Positions 4,462-36,430 of a stretch of DNA of 36,753 nt are shown in pieces. The position numbers and the translations under genes were made by a program. The DNA comes from a virus: positions 1-36,753 of the IMG/VR virus record IMGVR_UViG_3300032308_000261; one strand, written 5' to 3'. The notes below the pieces were generated by a model. That model saw nothing but the letters and a program-made list of their open reading frames with translations. It did not search any database and was not told the origin of the DNA. Positions within the stretch are counted from its first letter, which is position 1. Each line of letters starts with the position of its first letter.

Positions 4462-7056
4462 ATGGCAATCAACTTTCCAAATTCTCCATCCGACGGTCAA
4501 ATATTCTATGATACGGACAGCGGTAATAGATACATTTATAGTACCTCAAAAGGTAGATGGTCAGTTGCATCAAACAATAGTCCTTTTACAGCAACATCTA
4601 ATAATCAGGTTCTATTCAATAATCAGAATAGTATCGATGGTGATAATGGATTAGTCTTTGACGTTGGTGCTAACACTCTTTATGCTAATTCTATCAATGT
4701 AGCCTATGATATGAGGGTTCGTGGTAACCTTTATATCGGATCTAATACGGTAACAATCAGTAATAACTCCATTGCGGCTCAAGCCATATACGTTACCGAT
4801 AATACCGGTAATCAGATTTTGGTGGCTTCGGCTTCTGATAATCCAAGTTTTAATGCGGCTAACATAGCCTATAATGCTACCAATTCCGCTTTTAGTGTAA
4901 TCAATGCAGCTTTTGGTCATTCTAATGCGACCTATGCTTCAGTAAACTCAGCCTTTGGTTTGACTAATGCGGCTTTTGGTCAGTCAAACAACGAGGTTAC
5001 TAGACTATCATCAGCCTATGTGGTTGCTAACTCTTCCTATGCTCAGGTAAACACTGTATTTGGTGTTGCTAATGCCGCTTTCAATACGGCTAATAGTGTC
5101 AGCATTGCACCTGTGTATAATCTGACCAATGCATCCTTTGATAAAGCCAACTCTGCGGTGGTTAATGCGGCAGCCGCTTATGCTGCGGTCAATACATTGG
5201 CTACTAGTGCTAATGCCTATGCGGCTTCGGTTGGTACCTCTACCAATAACTATACATTAGCCACCTATTCTACACTAACACAATTCGGATCGGTTTTTGG
5301 TGTGGCTAATGCGGCTTTTGCGGTAAGTAATGCCGCCTTTGCTGCGGCTAACAGTAAAGTTGCCACCGTATCTGGTACATCTGGTCGTATCACAAGTTCT
5401 GGTTCCACCGGTATCACTCTTGACCTGGCCACGACTGGACCTGGTGCCGGTTCATATTCATCTGGCATATCTGCGTTAACATTAGATGCATACGGTCGTG
5501 TCACAGCCGTTACTGGTTCAGCTGGTTATGTTGTCTCTGGCGGTGCTCTTGGTACACCATCTTCCGGCACATTGACTAACTGCACCTTTCCAACTCTAAA
5601 CCAAAATACTACAGGTTCGGCAGGTTCTGTTACAGGACTCACATTAAACAGTTCCGCTAACGGTATTAATCCAGATAACGTAACTCAAAATCAATTAGGT
5701 TATTGTGGTGTTAGTTTATATGGTCAAGGTGATGGTGCTTTATTTTCATCCGCTCATAGTTCTAATTGGGTTCATCAAATCTATGGTGACTTTAGAACAG
5801 GTCAGATAGCTATTCGTGGTAAGAATAACGGAACTTGGCAATCGTGGTATTATGTTCCATCTTACGGTTATAATAATGCCTCATACAGTGGTGCTTTGTA
5901 TCCAACAATAGTTTATGACTCGAATAATACTGGTTACTATGTTGACCCTAATTCGTCATCAAAAATATCGGGATTAATAACTTTTGACACTGCCTACGGC
6001 TCGTCTAAACTACAAGATGCCATGGGTTTTGTTATTAATGGCAACTATACAGCAGGACATTATAGTCACAGATTTAGAAAATGGGATGATGGAAACGGCG
6101 TACCTTTATATGTTCAATCAACTAGTGCAACGCCGGGAACTTGGTCAAACATTGCTAAATTTGGACCTGGTGGAATTGCCGGCGAGACAGGATCCTTTAC
6201 AGTTTATGGTTTTGGAGAAGCTACAGGATCTTGGAGAGCACCTATATTCTATGATTCAGATGATACTGCTTACTATTGTAATCCTGCTGGATCATCAAGA
6301 TTTTCTGGTATTGAACGTGTTGGTGGTAGTGGTAACTGGGATACAGATTTTCAGAATACTCCAGCTGGGACTATCAGATATGGTGGTGATTTTAATGCTG
6401 GTACAAATGGTCCAACTGGTGGAACTGGTTGGTGGGTGCAAGAAAACTTCCGTCACTCTAATGCATCCAGCTATTGGGGCGTTCAGGTCGCATGGGGTTG
6501 GGAAGACAGAGCAAATGAACTTTATACTAGAAACGTAACTGGTGGTGGTTATGGCAGTTGGATAAGATATTGGAACTCTGCTAATGCTCCTGGTACAATT
6601 CTTCAAGTTCAACAAACACATTGGAATGGCGTAGCTACTTTAGCAGCAGGATCATTTACTAATCACCCTAATCTTTCTGTGGCAATTACACCAAGATCAA
6701 CAAGTAGTAAAATATTAGTTATGGTTTCTATGCAGGCAGTGGTTTATAACCTAACCATGCAGGCAAGATTTACTAGAAACGACACACCTATCGGAATCGC
6801 AACCGCTGCCGGTTCGAGGATTCTTTCTACTTTTGGTGGCCTTCAGACGATTGGTGACGGTAACCATCAATTTACTCCATGGAACTATCAGTTTTTGGAT
6901 TCACCAGGAACAACTTCCGCTCTGACATATAGAATACAACTAAAAATGCAGAGTAGCACAACCGCATATCTCAATAGATCGGTTAACGATGCTGATAACA
7001 ATGACTGGGCGCAGAGAACAACATCATCTATAACTGTAATGGAAATCGCATCATGA
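4462..7056 (+). CDS. Tail fibre protein, MA(I/L)NFP type
   Basis: An 864-residue fibre. The N-terminal domain (AINFPNSPSDGQ, SGNRYIY, GRWSV) is widespread in phage fibres and is shared with the gene at 7423. Residues about 130-305 are a run of seven-residue repeats around NAAF-x-x-AN, probably a trimeric helical shaft. A GTSGRITSSGSTGITLDL/GGALGTPSSGTLTNCTF module follows, nearly identical to one in the 7423 fibre. Two YDSN/DDT-x-YY repeats come next. The final 155 residues (GTILQVQQTHW... SITVMEIAS) match a C-terminal domain common in marine phage fibres. The start is ATG; the end overlaps the next gene as ATGA. Confidence 0.85.
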   Translation: MAINFPNSPSDGQIFYDTDSGNRYIYSTSKGRWSVASNNSPFTATSNNQVLFNNQNSIDGDNGLVFDVGANTLYANSINVAYDMRVRGNLYIGSNTVTISNNSIAAQAIYVTDNTGNQILVASASDNPSFNAANIAYNATNSAFSVINAAFGHSNATYASVNSAFGLTNAAFGQSNNEVTRLSSAYVVANSSYAQVNTVFGVANAAFNTANSVSIAPVYNLTNASFDKANSAVVNAAAAYAAVNTLATSANAYAASVGTSTNNYTLATYSTLTQFGSVFGVANAAFAVSNAAFAAANSKVATVSGTSGRITSSGSTGITLDLATTGPGAGSYSSGISALTLDAYGRVTAVTGSAGYVVSGGALGTPSSGTLTNCTFPTLNQNTTGSAGSVTGLTLNSSANGINPDNVTQNQLGYCGVSLYGQGDGALFSSAHSSNWVHQIYGDFRTGQIAIRGKNNGTWQSWYYVPSYGYNNASYSGALYPTIVYDSNNTGYYVDPNSSSKISGLITFDTAYGSSKLQDAMGFVINGNYTAGHYSHRFRKWDDGNGVPLYVQSTSATPGTWSNIAKFGPGGIAGETGSFTVYGFGEATGSWRAPIFYDSDDTAYYCNPAGSSRFSGIERVGGSGNWDTDFQNTPAGTIRYGGDFNAGTNGPTGGTGWWVQENFRHSNASSYWGVQVAWGWEDRANELYTRNVTGGGYGSWIRYWNSANAPGTILQVQQTHWNGVATLAAGSFTNHPNLSVAITPRSTSSKILVMVSMQAVVYNLTMQARFTRNDTPIGIATAAGSRILSTFGGLQTIGDGNHQFTPWNYQFLDSPGTTSALTYRIQLKMQSSTTAYLNRSVNDADNNDWAQRTTSSITVMEIAS

Positions 7057-7422: not shown

Positions 7423-10400
7423 TTGGCACTTAATTTTCCAGCATCACCAGTAGATGGACAGGTATATTTTGATCCTACCAGTGGCAATCGTTATGTTTAT
7501 GATGCTACCGCTGGTACATGGATGTCTAGATCCAATGGGTTCTTTTCTACTGTAGAAACCGGACAGGTAATATTTGACGCAAATGATGTTATTGGTGGAT
7601 CCAACGGATTATACTTTAGCACCTCTGCCAACACCCTATTTGCCAATTCTATCAATGTTGCTACGGACATGCGTGTGCGTGGTAATCTGTATATCGGTAC
7701 CAATACGGTTACCATTACAGATTCCGCTATTATGGCTCAGACATTCTTTATCATGCAGAATGGAACACCACTTGCTGTTCCAACTGGTTCAACCACCAAT
7801 GCTTCTTATGAGGTAGCCAATTCAGCCTTTGCTCATACTAATACCACATTAACACATTCTCAGGCAGTTTATGGTGCAGTTAACTCCGTATTCGGAGTCG
7901 TTAATGCTTCTTATACTAGTTCTAATGCTGACTACGTATTAACTAATGCCGCTTATACATCGGTTAATGCTGGCTATACAGTAGCCAACGCAGCGTTTGA
8001 ATCAGCTAATAGCAAAGTTTCAAAGTCCGGTGATACTATCACAGGCACACTAAGCATTGTTGGCGATCTTATTGTTTCTGGTAATACTCGTCAGATCAAT
8101 GCCAATACCATGTCGATATCAGATCCGTTGATCTATTTGGCTGCTAATAACTATTCTAGTGATATTGTTGATATTGGATTTATTGCCAACTATGTTAATA
8201 CCGGTGGTGCTAACGTTCACACAGGTTTGTATAGAGAACACACCGATAAGGAGTATTATTTATTCCAGGGTTATGATGCGGAGCCAATAAACAATCACAT
8301 TGGTGCATTAAGTAACAATATGACCTTATCGGTCCTTAATGCAAATATAAGAACATCTAACCTTAATTTAGGTGGTGCTAATGCCATTACATGGATTAGT
8401 TCTGGTTATGGTGTGGCTAACGCTGCTTATGGACAATCTAATTCGGAAGTAACCAGGCTCTCTGCGGCTTATGTAGTAAGTAATGCGGCCTTTGCTGCGG
8501 CTAACAATAAAGTAGCTACGGTTGCCGGTACATCTGGAAGAATTACAAGTTCCGGTTCGACCGGTATTACTCTTGACCTGGCCGCCGCTGGTGCTGGTGC
8601 GGCATCATATTCTTCCGGTATTTCGGCACTCACAGTTGATGCCTATGGTCGTGTTACGGCTGTTACTGGTTCGGCTGGTTATGTTGTCTCTGGCGGAGCC
8701 CTTGGTACGCCATCTTCCGGAACATTAACTAACTGCACCTTTCCAACTCTGAACCAAAATACTACAGGTAATGCCGGCACAGTAACAAATGGTGTATATA
8801 CCTCAGGCAATCAAACCATTGGCGGAACAAAAACTTTTAGCACATCATTAAGAGTTCCTACAGTCGGAACAACTTGGATTGGAGGTTTTAGAGGCGATTC
8901 CGGTATTACAAGTTCCACTCTTGGTACCGCAGGAAGTTATCATGGTTGGTATTCCGCTAGAACGCCTTCTGGTGGATTTACAATAGGAACTTTGAGCGAT
9001 ACTTTCTATTGTAACTGGGCAACAAACACCAACATCGACAACAATACAAATAGTATTTCTACTCCTTTGTATATCAATTCTGCTGGAACGGCCGGAGCGG
9101 CTGGCGACTTCCGTGCGCCAATCTTTTATGATTCGAATGATACTGGTTATTATGCAGATCCTACATCAACATCAAATATGAGCATCATTACAGCCACAAG
9201 ATTGTGTGCTGGTTATAATTCTGGTGATAATAACTCTGTTCAATGCTCTAACTGGTTTAGATCATCTGGCGATAGTGGATGGTATAGTCAGACTTATGGT
9301 GGTGGTGTTTATATGACAGATAGCACCTGGATTAGACTATATGGTGGTAAACAACTATATTCTACTGGTTATTTCCAATCAGATGCCAGTATGCGTTCGC
9401 CAATCTTTTATGATTCGAATGATACTGGTTATTATACAGACCCTAATGGTACTAGTTCTATGGCTACTGTTCGTGCTAGTAGGATTTTACTTGATAGAAA
9501 TCATGGTCATAGTATCTTTGGCGTCTACAGTGCTACTCGCTACCAGGGCGTTTGGTCTATGGGTGAATCCTTTTACCTTCCTGACGACGGTACCACAACC
9601 GGCAATCTTTATGGTCTTGCTTGGTCTCATCCAAATGCTGGTGGTACAGCGGCTAACCTAAATGATCACGGTTTATTGGTACTTGTAAATGGTGGATTTA
9701 GAGCTGCTGTATCAGGTAGTATTCGTTGTTCTACCGATATGCGGACGCCAATCTACTATGACTCGAATGATACATCATATTATTGTGATCCCAATTCAAA
9801 TTCTTCGTTTAATACATTACGTTGTCACGGTAACGAAATGTATCTAAGAGGCGGATCACCAACACTACGCTTTGAAGACACCGATCAACAATGTGCAACA
9901 TTACACAACAATAGTAACTTATTCTATATCTTAAGACACAATAGCTATACAGTCGGATGGTCAACCGTTGGATCTGGTTGGTGGCCAATGACCGTCAATC
10001 TAACCAATAATGATGTGTCATGGGGTGGTAATATTGCCGCTGCTTACAATGTGTCCGCTTATGCTTCTGACCGCCGTTTAAAAGAAAATATTAAAGAAAT
10101 TCCTAATGCCATTGAAAAGATAAAGGCTATTAGAGGAGTTACCTTTGATTGGAATGATAAAGCGGATGAAGTAGGTTTTAAACCTGAAAAGAAATATAAT
10201 GATATTGGATGTATTGCTCAGGAAGTAGAAGCAATTCTTCCTCATGTTGTTACATTGGCACCATTCGACAGATGGAAGCCAGGTCCTAACGAAAAATATA
10301 GCAATGAATATTTAGCTGAAAAAATGGATACATCTAGAAGCGGTGAAAACTATCTGACTATTCAGTATGATAGAATGGTACCTTTATTGATTCAAGCAAT

Positions 10401-10446
10401 CAAAGAACAGCAAGAACAAATTGAAGAATTAAAACGACGATTATAA
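7423..10446 (+). CDS. Large tail fibre with self-cleaving peptidase S74 chaperone domain
   Basis: A 1007-residue fibre starting at TTG (7423) after AAGGA; the reading ALNFPASPVDGQ matches the ATG-started paralogue at 4462, which supports the rare start. Order: attachment-type domain, NAAF/AN repeats, the SDPLIYLAANNY module shared with the first fibre, the GTSGRIT module shared with 4462, and three YDSNDT-x-YY repeats. The last 126 residues are the intramolecular chaperone of endosialidase (peptidase S74), with the motif SDRRLKENI beginning at Ser882. The expected dyad is Ser882/Lys887, with autocleavage before Ser882 after trimer folding. The chaperone ends in a coiled coil (EQQEQIEELKRR). 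This is probably the longest shaft in the locus. Confidence 0.92.
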   Translation: MALNFPASPVDGQVYFDPTSGNRYVYDATAGTWMSRSNGFFSTVETGQVIFDANDVIGGSNGLYFSTSANTLFANSINVATDMRVRGNLYIGTNTVTITDSAIMAQTFFIMQNGTPLAVPTGSTTNASYEVANSAFAHTNTTLTHSQAVYGAVNSVFGVVNASYTSSNADYVLTNAAYTSVNAGYTVANAAFESANSKVSKSGDTITGTLSIVGDLIVSGNTRQINANTMSISDPLIYLAANNYSSDIVDIGFIANYVNTGGANVHTGLYREHTDKEYYLFQGYDAEPINNHIGALSNNMTLSVLNANIRTSNLNLGGANAITWISSGYGVANAAYGQSNSEVTRLSAAYVVSNAAFAAANNKVATVAGTSGRITSSGSTGITLDLAAAGAGAASYSSGISALTVDAYGRVTAVTGSAGYVVSGGALGTPSSGTLTNCTFPTLNQNTTGNAGTVTNGVYTSGNQTIGGTKTFSTSLRVPTVGTTWIGGFRGDSGITSSTLGTAGSYHGWYSARTPSGGFTIGTLSDTFYCNWATNTNIDNNTNSISTPLYINSAGTAGAAGDFRAPIFYDSNDTGYYADPTSTSNMSIITATRLCAGYNSGDNNSVQCSNWFRSSGDSGWYSQTYGGGVYMTDSTWIRLYGGKQLYSTGYFQSDASMRSPIFYDSNDTGYYTDPNGTSSMATVRASRILLDRNHGHSIFGVYSATRYQGVWSMGESFYLPDDGTTTGNLYGLAWSHPNAGGTAANLNDHGLLVLVNGGFRAAVSGSIRCSTDMRTPIYYDSNDTSYYCDPNSNSSFNTLRCHGNEMYLRGGSPTLRFEDTDQQCATLHNNSNLFYILRHNSYTVGWSTVGSGWWPMTVNLTNNDVSWGGNIAAAYNVSAYASDRRLKENIKEIPNAIEKIKAIRGVTFDWNDKADEVGFKPEKKYNDIGCIAQEVEAILPHVVTLAPFDRWKPGPNEKYSNEYLAEKMDTSRSGENYLTIQYDRMVPLLIQAIKEQQEQIEELKRRL

Positions 10447-10485: not shown

Positions 10486-10824
10486 TTGAAAATGCTTCAA
10501 GGTAGCGGAACAATAACAATAGCTCAAATAGCCACTGATTTCGTTGGTAAGTATAACGATTACTATCAGTTTCAATACAGTGGTACTATATCCGATCTAT
10601 ACAATCTAAACTACTTTCGTGGTAGACCTAGATATGTTGGTGGTTCTGGTCCATGGAATGATTATGCTGCTCCTAATGGTGGGTTTGGGATAGGTACATT
10701 CTCTAGTGGTCAAATAAACATGTCAGACTTTTATAGCACTGAAGGTAACTGTAACTGTGATTGTGCGTGTGACTGTGCCTGTGATTGTGCGTGTGACTGT
10801 GCCTGTGACTGTGCGTGTAGTTAG
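10486..10824 (+). CDS. Small tail-type protein with C-terminal 12-cysteine Xaa-Cys repeat
   Basis: The frame opens at a TTG (10486), but the ATG at 10492 fits the GAGAAAG ribosome site better, giving 110 residues. The N-terminus (GSGTITIAQIATDF) and a later GQINMSDFY segment bracket the protein as in many phage tail/fibre proteins (pattern GxISLxDIxxEF ... ISLSDFY). The middle is Gly/Tyr/Asn-rich. The last 25 residues alternate Cys with Asn, Asp or Ala: 12 cysteines, one every second residue. No signal peptide or membrane segment is seen. The radical SAM gene starts 18 bases downstream, which suggests that this is its substrate (inference). It could instead be a metal-binding or disulfide-rich fibre tip needing no modification. 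Confidence 0.8.
   Translation: MKMLQGSGTITIAQIATDFVGKYNDYYQFQYSGTISDLYNLNYFRGRPRYVGGSGPWNDYAAPNGGFGIGTFSSGQINMSDFYSTEGNCNCDCACDCACDCACDCACDCACS
10759..10821 (+). repeat. 24-bp tandem repeat encoding (Asp-Cys-Ala-Cys)n
   Basis: Two perfect copies of a 24-base unit (10759-10782, 10783-10806) and a partial third copy (10807-10818, one changed base) make up the Cys-rich tail. At protein level the period is 12 bases. The third positions of the Asp and Ala codons alternate (gat/gac, gcg/gcc), while all Cys codons are tgt. Expansion by unequal recombination or slippage of the 24-base unit is the likely origin. Confidence 0.95.
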
Positions 10825-10842
10825 TTTGAAAAGGAAAAGATT

Positions 10843-12207
10843 ATGAAATTTGACATATTATGCACACAAGATTTGGGAACTGGTTTTAAGATCAGAAAGT
10901 TTGTATATGATAATCAAACTTCCGAAATTTTTGATGAGGACAACAATCCTATCTTTAAACAACCTGCAACAAAAAAATATTGTAAAAATTGTGCTACTAA
11001 GAAAGTATCTAGAGATAATCCAGGAGTAAAAACAGGCAGCAATGTAAGAAATTTAAAGATACAGCTTGGTCTTTCTTGCAATTATTCTTGTGAATACTGC
11101 TCTCAGAGATTTGTTCCAAATGCTGATGAAACATCACATAAGAATGTAGATAAGTTTATGAAAAATCTCGATCTATGGTTACACAATCCACCTAAAAAGA
11201 TTGAGTTTTGGGGCGGAGAACCATTGGTATATTGGAAAACACTTAAACCTTTAGCAGAAGCATTGAGAGAAAAATTTCCAGACGTTACTTTTTATATGAT
11301 AACCAATGGATCACTACTGACTCCTGAAATTAATCAGTGGATAGTTGATATGAATATGGACATTTCCATATCTCATGATGGGCCTGGACAAGTTGTTCGT
11401 GGTCCAGATCCGTTTGAAGATCCAGCGTCTAGAGAAGCCATAGAAGATTTGTGGTGGAAAAAAAATGGAAATATGAGCTTCAACTCAATGGCCCATAGAG
11501 AGAATATGGACAGAAAGAAGATAGCGGAGTTTTTCAAAGAAAGATTTGGACCTAAAGTGGTCATAGGAGAAGGAGCTTACATTGATGCCTATGATGAAGG
11601 TGGTCTTAAAAACACATATTGTACCACTGAAGAATTTTATGCTTTCCGAAGATTAACAATGCACCAATTGAGAGAGGGTTCACTACATAACTTTCTCTTT
11701 ACGAAAAAGAGATTACAAGATTGGTTAGAAAGTTTTAAAGAGTTTAGACCTGCCGATGTTGTCGGGCAGAAATGTGGTATGGATCGTCCTGATATCATAG
11801 CTGTCGATTTGAGAGGTAATGTTTTAACGTGTCAGAATGTCTCAGCGGTATCTACAAAGGATAATGGCCAACCACATCTGATTGGCCACGTATCAAATAT
11901 GGATAAGGTTAAACTTAATACATCCACTCACTGGTCTCATAGAGAAGACTGCGTAAAGTGTCCACTGCTACAGGGTTGTAAAGGATCATGTATGTTTTTG
12001 GACGATGAGAAGTTTAAAATTTCTTGTGATGCAGCATACTCAGATCATCTACCTTTCTTTTGTGCCGCATTTGAAATGGTAACAGGTTGTTTACCATTTG
12101 CTATACAAGCGCAAGATAATTCTCTACCAGAAGAACGAGCCGACCTATGGGGTCGTGCATCTGAAAAATATACTATACCTAAAACAAGAGAATCAAGCAA
12201 TGTCTGA
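10843..12207 (+). CDS. Radical SAM/SPASM-domain enzyme, putative peptide maturase
   Basis: A 454-residue enzyme. Residues 79-86 carry the radical SAM Cys-x3-Cys-x2-Cys motif (CNYSCEYC), which holds the 4Fe-4S cluster that cleaves S-adenosylmethionine. GGEP at 124-127 is the usual SAM-binding motif. The C-terminus has a SPASM-type cluster domain: Cys311, GNVLTC ending at Cys330, then Cys370-x2-Cys373-x5-Cys379-x3-Cys383, plus Cys395 and Cys407. Auxiliary clusters of this kind occur in maturases of ribosomally made peptides (sactipeptide/ranthipeptide enzymes) and in anaerobic sulfatase maturases. An extra CKNC lies at 47-50. It follows the Cys-repeat protein by 18 bases and overlaps the next gene by 8. 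The substrate is inferred from the neighbourhood. The fold is certain, the reaction is not. Confidence 0.9.
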   Translation: MKFDILCTQDLGTGFKIRKFVYDNQTSEIFDEDNNPIFKQPATKKYCKNCATKKVSRDNPGVKTGSNVRNLKIQLGLSCNYSCEYCSQRFVPNADETSHKNVDKFMKNLDLWLHNPPKKIEFWGGEPLVYWKTLKPLAEALREKFPDVTFYMITNGSLLTPEINQWIVDMNMDISISHDGPGQVVRGPDPFEDPASREAIEDLWWKKNGNMSFNSMAHRENMDRKKIAEFFKERFGPKVVIGEGAYIDAYDEGGLKNTYCTTEEFYAFRRLTMHQLREGSLHNFLFTKKRLQDWLESFKEFRPADVVGQKCGMDRPDIIAVDLRGNVLTCQNVSAVSTKDNGQPHLIGHVSNMDKVKLNTSTHWSHREDCVKCPLLQGCKGSCMFLDDEKFKISCDAAYSDHLPFFCAAFEMVTGCLPFAIQAQDNSLPEERADLWGRASEKYTIPKTRESSNV

Positions 12208-12988
12208 TATAAAAAGACTTTCAGTCAATAACTTATATACTGAGGGATATTTAACAAAAGTAATCCCTTGTATTCATATACATGACGACGGACAATCATT
12301 AACACTCACTTCACTAACAATACAAAAAAAAGAAGATACTAAAGACGGAGATACCTTTTTAACTTCTGAACAGTTTATAAATCTTATCAGCCAGCCCGCT
12401 GATGGAACTGCAAATTTAAAAGACAGTGACTACATAAGTCATTATAACTGTTATGACAATCTTCTTATAGAGTATAAACATTTTCCTGGTTTCATTAAAG
12501 AAATTTTTGAAAAGTTTGATGCTGTTTTGAAAATACGAATGAAGATAACTTTTAAATTTATAGCTGCTGCCACTAAAGACTATAACTGGGTAGGTTTTAT
12601 GAAGTATTTTAATCCACCTTTATTTAATGTTACATCAAATATGATTATGGGCAGTATGAAGTTATTTAACTTTGATGAAGTAAATTTGAAAATATCAGAA
12701 GGTGTTTATCATCTACTTCCATCAGTCGTTTTCAAAATTCCGGGAAACAATCAGATACCAAATCTAAACGAATGTGATATTGTTATATTACATCCTGATC
12801 CGGGTTACCATTGTAATTTACAGCTTAAAGAATTAGGATATGAGGACTTCAAGGCAAACAATTATAGTGATATTGTTATTGATACTGAGGTTTTCCATAT
12901 AATCAGAACCGCCGAGTTGAGATATAAAAAGAAACTTTTAATCGATCAGAATACCACATCAACCATATTAGGATCACCGGCTGCCTGA
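12200..12988 (+). CDS. Unrecognised protein of the radical SAM cassette
   Basis: A 262-residue protein I do not recognise. The frame is open further upstream (to 12098), but that part overlaps the radical SAM gene in another frame. The ATG at 12200 gives an 8-base overlap with the radical SAM stop and is the sensible start. The stop overlaps the next ATG by one base, so it is coupled on both sides. It is mixed alpha/beta by eye, Lys/Ile/Phe/Asn-rich, with no signal peptide or membrane helix and only a few scattered cysteines. Its DNA looks more AT-rich than the structural genes around it. It could be a partner or substrate-presenting subunit of the modifying enzymes, or a second substrate. 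These are guesses from position only. Confidence 0.7.
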   Translation: MSDIKRLSVNNLYTEGYLTKVIPCIHIHDDGQSLTLTSLTIQKKEDTKDGDTFLTSEQFINLISQPADGTANLKDSDYISHYNCYDNLLIEYKHFPGFIKEIFEKFDAVLKIRMKITFKFIAAATKDYNWVGFMKYFNPPLFNVTSNMIMGSMKLFNFDEVNLKISEGVYHLLPSVVFKIPGNNQIPNLNECDIVILHPDPGYHCNLQLKELGYEDFKANNYSDIVIDTEVFHIIRTAELRYKKKLLIDQNTTSTILGSPAA

Positions 12989-14412
12989 TGAAACTGCTTG
13001 GTATAAGTTTAACTGGTCATGATCATAGTGTATCATACTACGATGGTGAACAAGTCAGATTTCATAAGTTTGAAAGAACGAAGCAAGTCAAAAGATATAG
13101 ATTTCATGACTTTTCTGAGTTTGAGAGTGAGATAAGAAATCTTTGGAATGTTTATATATCTGATATGGATGATGTTGCGGCATGTTACTCATGTCTCATT
13201 GATAACAGATTAAAGTTTAACATTATACCACATCATTATGCTCATGCTCTCAGTGTTTATCCGTTCATAGGTAAGAAGCCAGACATATCTATTGTTGTAG
13301 ATGGATTCGGTGATGGCAAAACGTGGTCGGTGTTTAAAGATGCGGATTGTATAAATTACGGAACGTTAAAAGAAGGGTCAATTGGAAACGGAGTAAGAGA
13401 CTCCGGGATACTTTTAGGTATTAAGTATCAGGTTCTCCAAGACATTGCAGGAAAGGCGATGGCCCTGCAAACATATGGAAACGTCGATGAGGACTACTTA
13501 GTAATCCTAAGAAGATATGATATGAATAGTATCAATCAGATTTTCTCATTCGATAACTGGAAAGAGTTTAAAGGCGGCGAGTTTTTATCGGAGCTAACCA
13601 AACTGAATTGGTTAACGACTATCCATACAAGAATAGAAGAACTTTTGCTAGAGTTCTTTTATAAGTTCGCTTCTCCAAATGACGTTATAGGTTACTCAGG
13701 TGGTGTTGCTCAAAATGTCATATGGAACACGACATTAAAGAAACACTTTAAAAACTTGTATATACCTCCGCATTCGTGTGACGAGGGATTAAGTTTAGGA
13801 TGTCTCGAATGGTTAAGACAGAAACACAATCTACCTATGTTTGATATGAAGGGTTTTCCTTATATACAAAATGATGTTGCTCCTTCAGTTGAACCTTCAG
13901 ATGAGACGATTAGAACAGTTGCTAAGTATCTATCAGAAGGTAAGACTGTAGCCTGGTATCAAGGTCATGGGGAAATCGGTCCTAGAGCTTTAGGTAATCG
14001 TTCTATTCTAATGGACCCTAGAATATCTGATGGTAAAGAGATAATCAATAGAATAAAGAATAGAGAAAGCTATAGACCTTTTGGTGCTTCCGTTTTGGCG
14101 GAACATGCCAATGAATACTTCGACATGATATGCGAAGATGAATATATGCTTTATACTTGTCAAGTGAAAACCGATACACTACCTGCAATAACACATAAAG
14201 ACGGAAGTTGTAGGATTCAGACCGTCGGTGACAAGAATCCTGTTTTTAAGAAACTTTTAGAGGAATTCTATAGTTTAACCAAATGCCCTCTGTTACTGAA
14301 TACCAGTCTAAATTTAGCAGGTAAGCCTATAGCGGGTTATCCTGAGACAGTAGTAGAACTATTAAAGAATACAAGTTTAGACTGTGCGGTGGTGGGCAAT
14401 ACTATATATTAG
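12988..14412 (+). CDS. NodU/TobZ-family carbamoyltransferase
   Basis: A 474-residue protein with the landmarks of the NodU/CmcH/TobZ carbamoyltransferase family: an N-terminal ASKHA-like domain (LLGISLTGHDHSVSYYDG), HHYAHA at 82-87 (metal/active-site histidines), VDGFGDG at 104-110, SGGVAQN at 237-243, and a C-terminal YrdC-like-fold part with GPRALGNRSIL at 331-341, YRPFGASV at 362-369 and NTSLN at 438-442. The family moves a carbamoyl group from carbamoyl phosphate via carbamoyl-adenylate to a hydroxyl of a sugar or small molecule. At 474 residues it is somewhat shorter than full-length members, but key motifs are intact. It is coupled (TGATG) to the unknown gene upstream. In a virion-gene context the acceptor is unknown: host glycan, virion glycan or a modified peptide are possible. 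Confidence 0.92.
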   Translation: MKLLGISLTGHDHSVSYYDGEQVRFHKFERTKQVKRYRFHDFSEFESEIRNLWNVYISDMDDVAACYSCLIDNRLKFNIIPHHYAHALSVYPFIGKKPDISIVVDGFGDGKTWSVFKDADCINYGTLKEGSIGNGVRDSGILLGIKYQVLQDIAGKAMALQTYGNVDEDYLVILRRYDMNSINQIFSFDNWKEFKGGEFLSELTKLNWLTTIHTRIEELLLEFFYKFASPNDVIGYSGGVAQNVIWNTTLKKHFKNLYIPPHSCDEGLSLGCLEWLRQKHNLPMFDMKGFPYIQNDVAPSVEPSDETIRTVAKYLSEGKTVAWYQGHGEIGPRALGNRSILMDPRISDGKEIINRIKNRESYRPFGASVLAEHANEYFDMICEDEYMLYTCQVKTDTLPAITHKDGSCRIQTVGDKNPVFKKLLEEFYSLTKCPLLLNTSLNLAGKPIAGYPETVVELLKNTSLDCAVVGNTIY

Positions 14413-35769: not shown

Positions 35770-35826
35770 ATGATTGTAACAGTTACAACCAATTTGATTA
35801 GAGAATTTCGTGATCGTAAGTCATAA
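35770..35826 (+). other. Possible 18-residue leader ORF
   Basis: ATG at 35770 reads 18 codons and stops at 35826, overlapping the GTG start of the next gene. No good ribosome site. It spans the dyad at 35774-35788. It may be chance. Confidence 0.2.
35774..35788. promoter_or_regulatory. Dyad TTGTAACAGTTACAA, operator-like
   Basis: Perfect 7-bp inverted repeat around one central base, 22 bases before the oxygenase start. It is compact enough for a repressor dimer site; as RNA the one-base loop is too tight for all pairs. Confidence 0.35.
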
Positions 35827-36430
35827 GAAGCATGATAAGGCCTCTTTTATGCTATTTGAGGATGTTTTCAATACCATTGAATTGAAACACATCTGGCAAG
35901 AAGCCATGTTCCTTTGTCATGAACGTAAGTTCTCTGGTCCTTCGGTAACAGGATCAGCCATTGAAGATAATGAGTTTATAAAGAATAACAAAGGAATATG
36001 GTTAGATAAGTTATATTCAGATCGAAAAATTTCAAATTATCTATCATTGTATAGGAAACCTTTTGATAGTATTCTAGATCAAAAGGACAAACTTATAGAT
36101 ATAGACTTTAATATGAAACTATTCTATCTCACCAGTGCTGATGTTACTTTGTTAAGCTATTATGAAGATTCTGATTACTATAAAAGTCATACCGATAATT
36201 CTTGTTATACATACATTTTTTGGCTGTTTAGGGAACCAAAACTGTTTTCCGGTGGTGATCTGGTATTTCCTGAACTCGATCTGACCATTAATGTTAAGAG
36301 TAACATGGCTATTTTATTTCCTTCCTGGCTCGATCATAAGGTTGACAATGTATCCATATGTGATACCATAGAGAAGTTTAATTGTAATGGACGGTTTTCG
36401 TTCACAACATTCTTTAAGATAGAGGATTGA
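35810..36430 (+). CDS. 2-oxoglutarate/Fe(II)-dependent oxygenase
   Basis: 206 residues from a GTG start (35810); an ATG at 35849 is an alternative with no better ribosome site. Iron ligands: His127-x-Asp129 (SHTDNS) and His176 (SWLDHKV). The 2-oxoglutarate carboxylate is probably held by Arg195 (NGRFSFTTFF). FSGGDLVFPE is the prolyl-4-hydroxylase-like GGxLxF pattern. T4-like marine phages often carry such enzymes; substrates are mostly unknown (protein hydroxylation is one option). It lies between gp55 and gp47. Confidence 0.88.
   Translation: MIVSHKKHDKASFMLFEDVFNTIELKHIWQEAMFLCHERKFSGPSVTGSAIEDNEFIKNNKGIWLDKLYSDRKISNYLSLYRKPFDSILDQKDKLIDIDFNMKLFYLTSADVTLLSYYEDSDYYKSHTDNSCYTYIFWLFREPKLFSGGDLVFPELDLTINVKSNMAILFPSWLDHKVDNVSICDTIEKFNCNGRFSFTTFFKIED

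Follow-up and report, generated by a model that had tools for sequence, protein, structure and literature searches.

Does a radical SAM/SPASM enzyme encoded by a phage modify the cysteine-rich end of the protein encoded directly before it? The question was raised by a virus record from IMG/VR, analysed over its whole length of 36,753 bases and referred to here as the window, in which a short gene for a protein ending in Cys at every second residue is followed by a gene for such an enzyme. The results described below indicate that a phage-encoded RiPP-type modification system probably acts on virion tail proteins through this Cys-X tail.

The Cys-X protein and its setting in the window

The Cys-X tail protein, the proposed substrate, is encoded on the forward strand at 10492-10824 (110 residues from the ATG at 10492). 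With the TTG start at 10486 the open reading frame covers 10486-10824 (112 residues) and reads ...GSGTITIAQIATDF...GQINMSDFYSTEGNCNCDCACDCACDCACDCACDCACS, followed by the stop codon. All 12 cysteines lie within the C-terminal (Xaa-Cys)12-Ser tail (10747-10821, forward strand; NCNCDCACDCACDCACDCACDCACS), spelled NCNCDCAC...DCACS, and none lie outside it; reading frame and translation thus bear out the 12-Cys repeat at the protein end that a sequence-only reading of this DNA had described. Nine overlapping matches to a Cys-x-Cys-x-Cys-x-Cys codon pattern were present in the stretch, against 0.09 expected from shuffles, and the DNA of the tail region forms a degenerate 24-bp tandem repeat with 3.0 copies. 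An artefact of DNA slippage was ruled out, as codons differ within the repeat and identical tails of relatives are written with other codons, those for Cys included. Selection therefore acts on the peptide; the 100% Cys identity in the codon comparison arises by construction and was left out as evidence.

No match to the Cys-X protein of the window was obtained in Pfam or PHROG, and its AF2 model was uninformative (pLDDT 41.6). The earlier labelling of its N-terminal part by tail-protein motifs is therefore not backed by these profiles. It is backed by position and by relatives: the gene lies directly downstream of a gene for a tail fibre with a Peptidase_S74 chaperone (7423-10446, forward strand; PF13884 at 1.2e-17, tail-fibre PHROGs), and other Cys-X proteins have tail-fibre matches. 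The assignment of the Cys-X proteins as tail proteins is thus supported, and the tail-fibre neighbour places the system in the tail module. The window itself was provisionally read as a T4-type phage on the basis of its terminase-like (18172), sheath-like (19924), portal-like (22305) and capsid-like (29941) gene products.

The enzyme gene, encoding the proposed tail maturase of 454 residues (10843-12207, forward strand), begins 18 bases past the stop codon of the Cys-X gene, and its product was characterized with Pfam, PHROG, NCBIfam and an AF2 model. Scores of 36.5 bits against Radical_SAM (PF04055, 6.8e-9; cut-off 29.5) and 30.5 bits against SPASM (TIGR04085; cut-off 27) place it in both families. 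It also belongs to phrog_1802 (6.7e-61, residues 63-400), an existing phage family whose annotation is merely "radical SAM domain-containing protein". In 27 aligned sequences, including that of the window, the CX3CX2C motif (C79, C83, C86) was invariant, as were the SPASM cysteines C311, C330, C370, C373, C379, C383 and C395. Their spacing, C311-x13-G325-x4-C330, C370-x2-C373-x5-C379-x3-C383 and C395, follows the seven-Cys pattern tested (CX9-15GX4C ... CX2CX5CX3C ... C). Reading frame and alignment agree here with the enzyme, its distance and its complete Cys sets as first described.

Two further genes had been considered coupled to the enzyme by overlaps of 8 bases and 1 base, and the coordinates agree. 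The first (12200-12988, forward strand; overlap at 12200-12207) encodes a 262-residue protein without an assigned family, for which no Pfam or NCBIfam match was found and PHROG gave E 0.11 at best; no homologue of the gene was present among the fetched loci. The second (12988-14412, forward strand; overlap at 12988) encodes a NodU-type carbamoyltransferase (PF16861 at 2.9e-53, PF02543 at 9.9e-13, phrog_1601 at 2.1e-139), which has both Carbam_trans_N and Carbam_trans_C and misses the nodU equivalog cut-off (130 vs 1000). Its two homologues in the fetched loci (L230 and L255) lie in loci where the enzyme was not found. The four genes thus did not hold together as one system, and because neither coupled gene is conserved with the enzyme in the fetched loci, both look like local accessories at most. 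The idea of a carbamoyl-cysteine, formed by HypF-like transfer to Cys, was dropped, the carbamoyltransferase being unlinked to the enzyme elsewhere.

Linkage of tail and enzyme

When the sequence of the enzyme or of the tail protein was used singly as a query against viral contigs, no matches were obtained. A profile built from three enzymes recovered 393 relatives in viral contigs (the best 80 of 393 were used), and a wider enzyme profile recovered 86 in genomes (the best 80 of 86 were used), mostly from Pseudomonadota and, among the matches listed, from Limnohabitans, Burkholderia, Paraburkholderia, Rhodobacteraceae and Rhodospirillaceae. Many of the genome-borne loci are taken to be prophages, because several are close to tail genes. 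The closest relatives in phage records were those of Achromobacter phages JWF and 2-1, with 44% identity; in both, the enzyme gene sits two genes past a tail-fibre gene with NCNCDCNCNCSC and, immediately thereafter, a Hint domain.

The linkage was then assessed in both directions. For the forward direction, 110 loci were taken that had been found only via the enzyme and had at least 3.6 kb of upstream sequence; a tail was counted when a Cys-X run with at least four Cys lay upstream on the same strand, C-terminal or preceding a Hint domain. Such a tail was present in 91 of the 110 loci, compared with one of 110 on the opposite strand, and Cys-X tails occurred across all major branches of the enzyme tree. 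An earlier subset comprised 44 viral loci, of which 40 had the tail upstream on the same strand and none had it on the opposite strand; by enzyme cluster it was found in 27/31 at 90% identity and in 12/14 at 70% identity. The search for enzyme homologues that regularly lack a Cys-repeat gene, which would speak against the pairing, thus favours linkage, both by the 91/110 count and over the whole enzyme tree.

For the reverse direction, 49 tail genes were collected only via the DNA pattern for NCNC[ND]CxC. An enzyme on the same strand was found within the fetched stretch for 46 of them, the remaining three being weaker or partial matches, and for none of 16 other pattern matches, which were mostly short chance frames. 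The enzyme does accompany five additional matches from the class "other", which resemble genuine tails in cut or atypical open reading frames. With few exceptions among the loci listed, the enzyme lay 0.04-3.1 kb downstream of the tail; it was upstream in L219, L226 and L240. Among the controls, random TGYNNN runs gave solely low-complexity DNA and no enzyme, and no Cys-X run was present in four records containing phage radical SAM proteins of other kinds. Several loci carry two or three Cys-X genes for a single enzyme (L004, L011, L013). A precursor gene and a maturase gene kept as an adjoining pair, one general criterion for a RiPP system, were found in the forward and reverse tests alike. 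That the Cys-X tail and the enzyme belong to one system is well supported, and their pairing is real and general.

The 19 of 110 enzyme loci without a counted tail upstream are of several kinds. Some reflect the counting limits: L033 ends in NCNCACK with three Cys, L049 is cut at the contig end, and in L018 the order is reversed, with a Cys-X run (6253-6759) downstream of the enzyme on the N-terminal side of a collagen-like protein. Two small enzyme clades, one from Ramlibacter/Variovorax with another upstream gene and one from Sulfuritalea/Sulfuricella, look like sister clades with host-type systems in host chromosomes. To the Sulfuritalea/Sulfuricella clade belong L384, where the gene upstream of the enzyme relative was read from its sequence as a type I secretion-like transporter, and L393, where the downstream gene was read as an RTX-like protein; loci of this type are a possible non-phage branch with other substrates. 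In L212, L221 and L319, two to four radical SAM proteins with weak scores on the profile of the family are encoded behind the tail gene; these loci may represent a second variant of greater complexity.

Other genes recur around the pair. A family of proteins of ~290 residues occurs in 93 loci (e.g. L356:4785-5660), in many of them with its gene placed after that of the tail protein and before that of the enzyme; the one member scanned had no Pfam match, and the family is a candidate partner or chaperone. No support was found for the 262-residue gene of the window and JWF gp029 as distant homologues of each other or of this family. In siphophage-like loci the enzyme is followed by DUF1833, NlpC/P60 and a tail-tip J-like gene (the J label by reading of the sequence), and these neighbours assign the system to tail assembly. 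Of 160 loci, 99 have a 2OG-Fe(II) oxygenase or a relative of one within about 4.5 kb; the window has an oxygenase of this superfamily at 35810-36430 (PF13640, 4.2e-7), more than 20 kb from the enzyme.

Carriers of the tail and their Hint domains

In an alignment of 29 diverse tail carriers the only invariant columns were four Cys. The commonest PHROG match among carriers was a tail-fibre family, and collagen and shufflon domains recurred in Pfam. By these comparisons the Cys-X tail is a portable module, and its carriers, among which tail fibres are frequent, are otherwise unrelated to each other; some carriers may be non-virion proteins. Among 588 X residues in 133 distinct tails, N accounted for 336, D for 94 and A for 83, and Asn preceded the first Cys in 177/191.

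The protein of the window has no Hint domain, and the same holds for its homologues in L004, L005, L009 and L078, which likewise end after the tail. Its homologues in L008, L014 and L016 have a Hint domain a few residues behind the tail, and in other carriers the domain follows immediately. Sixteen distinct Hint domains were compared: the N-terminal Cys was present in 16/16, Cys being partly a selection criterion, and a TxxH-like motif, the hallmark of block B, in 12/16. Since the usual terminal His-Asn was present in 0/16 by reading of the sequence, the likely reaction would be N-terminal cleavage without splicing. The domains resemble Hedgehog-type and bacterial intein-like Hint domains (PF05203, PF01079) in having a Cys nucleophile site directly after the tail in JWF and relatives (CFPAGT in JWF gp028), but differ from them in being fused to phage Cys-X tails beside a radical SAM gene, with cleavage as the predicted outcome. 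In L226 and L219 a conserved stretch (SKI[IV]C.KL..LGMM) that is not Hint-like lies behind the Cys-X run, the enzyme being upstream; it is perhaps another C-terminal extension.

Probable action of the enzyme

The AF2 model of the enzyme (pLDDT 89.6, pTM 0.89) had CteB as the nearest solved fold (Z 23.1), followed by ChlB, anSME and TigE, all four being peptide- or protein-modifying SPASM enzymes; the radical SAM epimerase EpeE was a more distant match. The model shows no full RiPP recognition element, the part that would recognise a leader peptide; three N-terminal strands are present with no helices directly behind them. The best NCBIfam matches were PapB, CcpM, HxsB, the geopeptide maturase and QhpD, all far under their cut-offs. 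Judged from folds and profiles, the enzyme would act like these maturases, yet it belongs to none of their families.

We propose that a tail-fibre or tail-tip protein ends in a C-terminal module with Cys in every second position and, for the most part, Asn, Asp or Ala in the positions between, and that the neighbouring phrog_1802 enzyme would bind this protein and modify the repeat. That the tail is the substrate of the enzyme is, on the strength of the linkage, very probable. The likeliest chemistry would be cross-linking by S-C thioethers that join Cys with the residues at the Asn/Asp (or Ala) positions, Cys-to-Asn/Asp links being our leading guess because PapB and QhpD make Cys-Asp links; by this analogy thioethers in the tail come close to an even call. 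PapB joins Cys to Asp over 0-6 residues and in nested arrays (PMC9413430), and QhpD forms Cys-Asp and Cys-Glu links within a protein (PMC8326336). Against PapB-like chemistry, many of the X residues are Asn or Ala, and Asn as an acceptor is not established in PMC9413430 or PMC8326336. Cross-links of this kind would make the flexible tail rigid and redox-proof. Where a Hint domain is fused behind the tail, as in some phages, its self-cleavage would leave the same end exposed; in the phage of the window the gene stops at this point. A role of the hardened tip in adsorption or penetration is speculative and on balance doubtful.

The tail could also function without modification, by binding metal (Fe, Zn or Fe-S) or by forming a ladder of disulfides at a trimeric fibre tip, with the enzyme acting elsewhere in the same protein or on a neighbour. 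In a strand with Cys in every second position all thiols point to the same side, which suits metals or disulfides, and metal-bearing tips are known for tail spikes of other phages. However, an unmodified tail leaves unexplained why one radical SAM family is found with it in nearly all cases, in both directions and on unrelated carriers, and we consider this reading improbable. Another notion is that the enzyme serves host metabolism or defence as a moron and lies in the tail region by chance. Morons near fibre genes are common in phages, and 2OG-Fe(II) oxygenases and, in the window, a carbamoyltransferase are nearby; yet tail carriers without the enzyme were hardly seen in the reverse test and the linkage spans the enzyme tree, which leaves this explanation very little room.

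A product other than a thioether, formed by the enzyme on the tail, deserves more weight, although it is still rather unlikely. Formylglycine from Cys, as made by anSME, C-C cross-links or epimerisation would be candidates, given that anSME and TigE are among the closest folds and EpeE is a more distant one; moreover, the precursor TvgA is repetitive and is believed to receive one type of modification many times over (PMC9062424). A strict repeat of Cys with intervening Asn/Asp nevertheless suits thioether makers better, and PapB is the best NCBIfam match of the window enzyme and matches all 27 enzyme sequences scanned.

Thioether formation, the preferred reading, draws on several known systems, each of which differs from the present one. 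PapA/PapB (NF047865) likewise combines a SPASM enzyme with a Cys-rich repeated substrate, PapB making Cys-Asp thioethers with loose spacing and nesting, but the window enzyme scores 67.2 bits against an equivalog cut-off of 340 and falls outside that family. PapA is a separate peptide, whereas here the end of a virion protein is concerned and Asn and Ala are common X residues besides Asp; we know of no use of Asn or Ala by PapB. CteA/CteB of the SCIFF type (TIGR03974) provides the closest solved fold (3.5 A over 315 residues) and forms thioethers, but the score stays outside the family (36.2 bits against 425), the substrate is another one, and the N-terminal recognition element of CteB is incomplete here. 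The His-Xaa-Ser system (HxsA, HxsB, HxsC, HxsD) likewise has a repeat protein served by radical SAM maturases of its own (HxsB match 4e-15); it has a three-residue His repeat and two radical SAM enzymes in place of Xaa-Cys, the score again lies outside (55.4 bits against 370), and to our knowledge it is not a phage system. QhpD (TIGR03906, 1.4e-13) places Cys-Asp/Glu thioethers in a protein, the quinohemoprotein subunit, and not in a peptide, but the match reaches 50 bits against 453 and the QhpD system is without a repeat tail.

No description of the tail-enzyme linkage was found in the open-access literature searched. We tentatively envisage, at somewhat less than even confidence, a general principle of virion maturation: in phages of many lineages, radical chemistry of the RiPP type would complete tail-tip proteins at a portable C-terminal Cys-X module, which a Hint domain would release in some cases, and a covalently stapled, redox-proof tip would meet the host. 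Phages may thus finish the tips of tail proteins as bacteria finish certain peptide antibiotics. If this is true, radical SAM peptide chemistry would be a common part of phage particle building, beyond peptide natural products; phrog_1802 would gain a role, the Cys-X motif would predict modified virion proteins, and tag and enzyme would constitute a portable pair for stapling protein ends. The system is carried by cultured phages, namely the Achromobacter phages JWF and 2-1.
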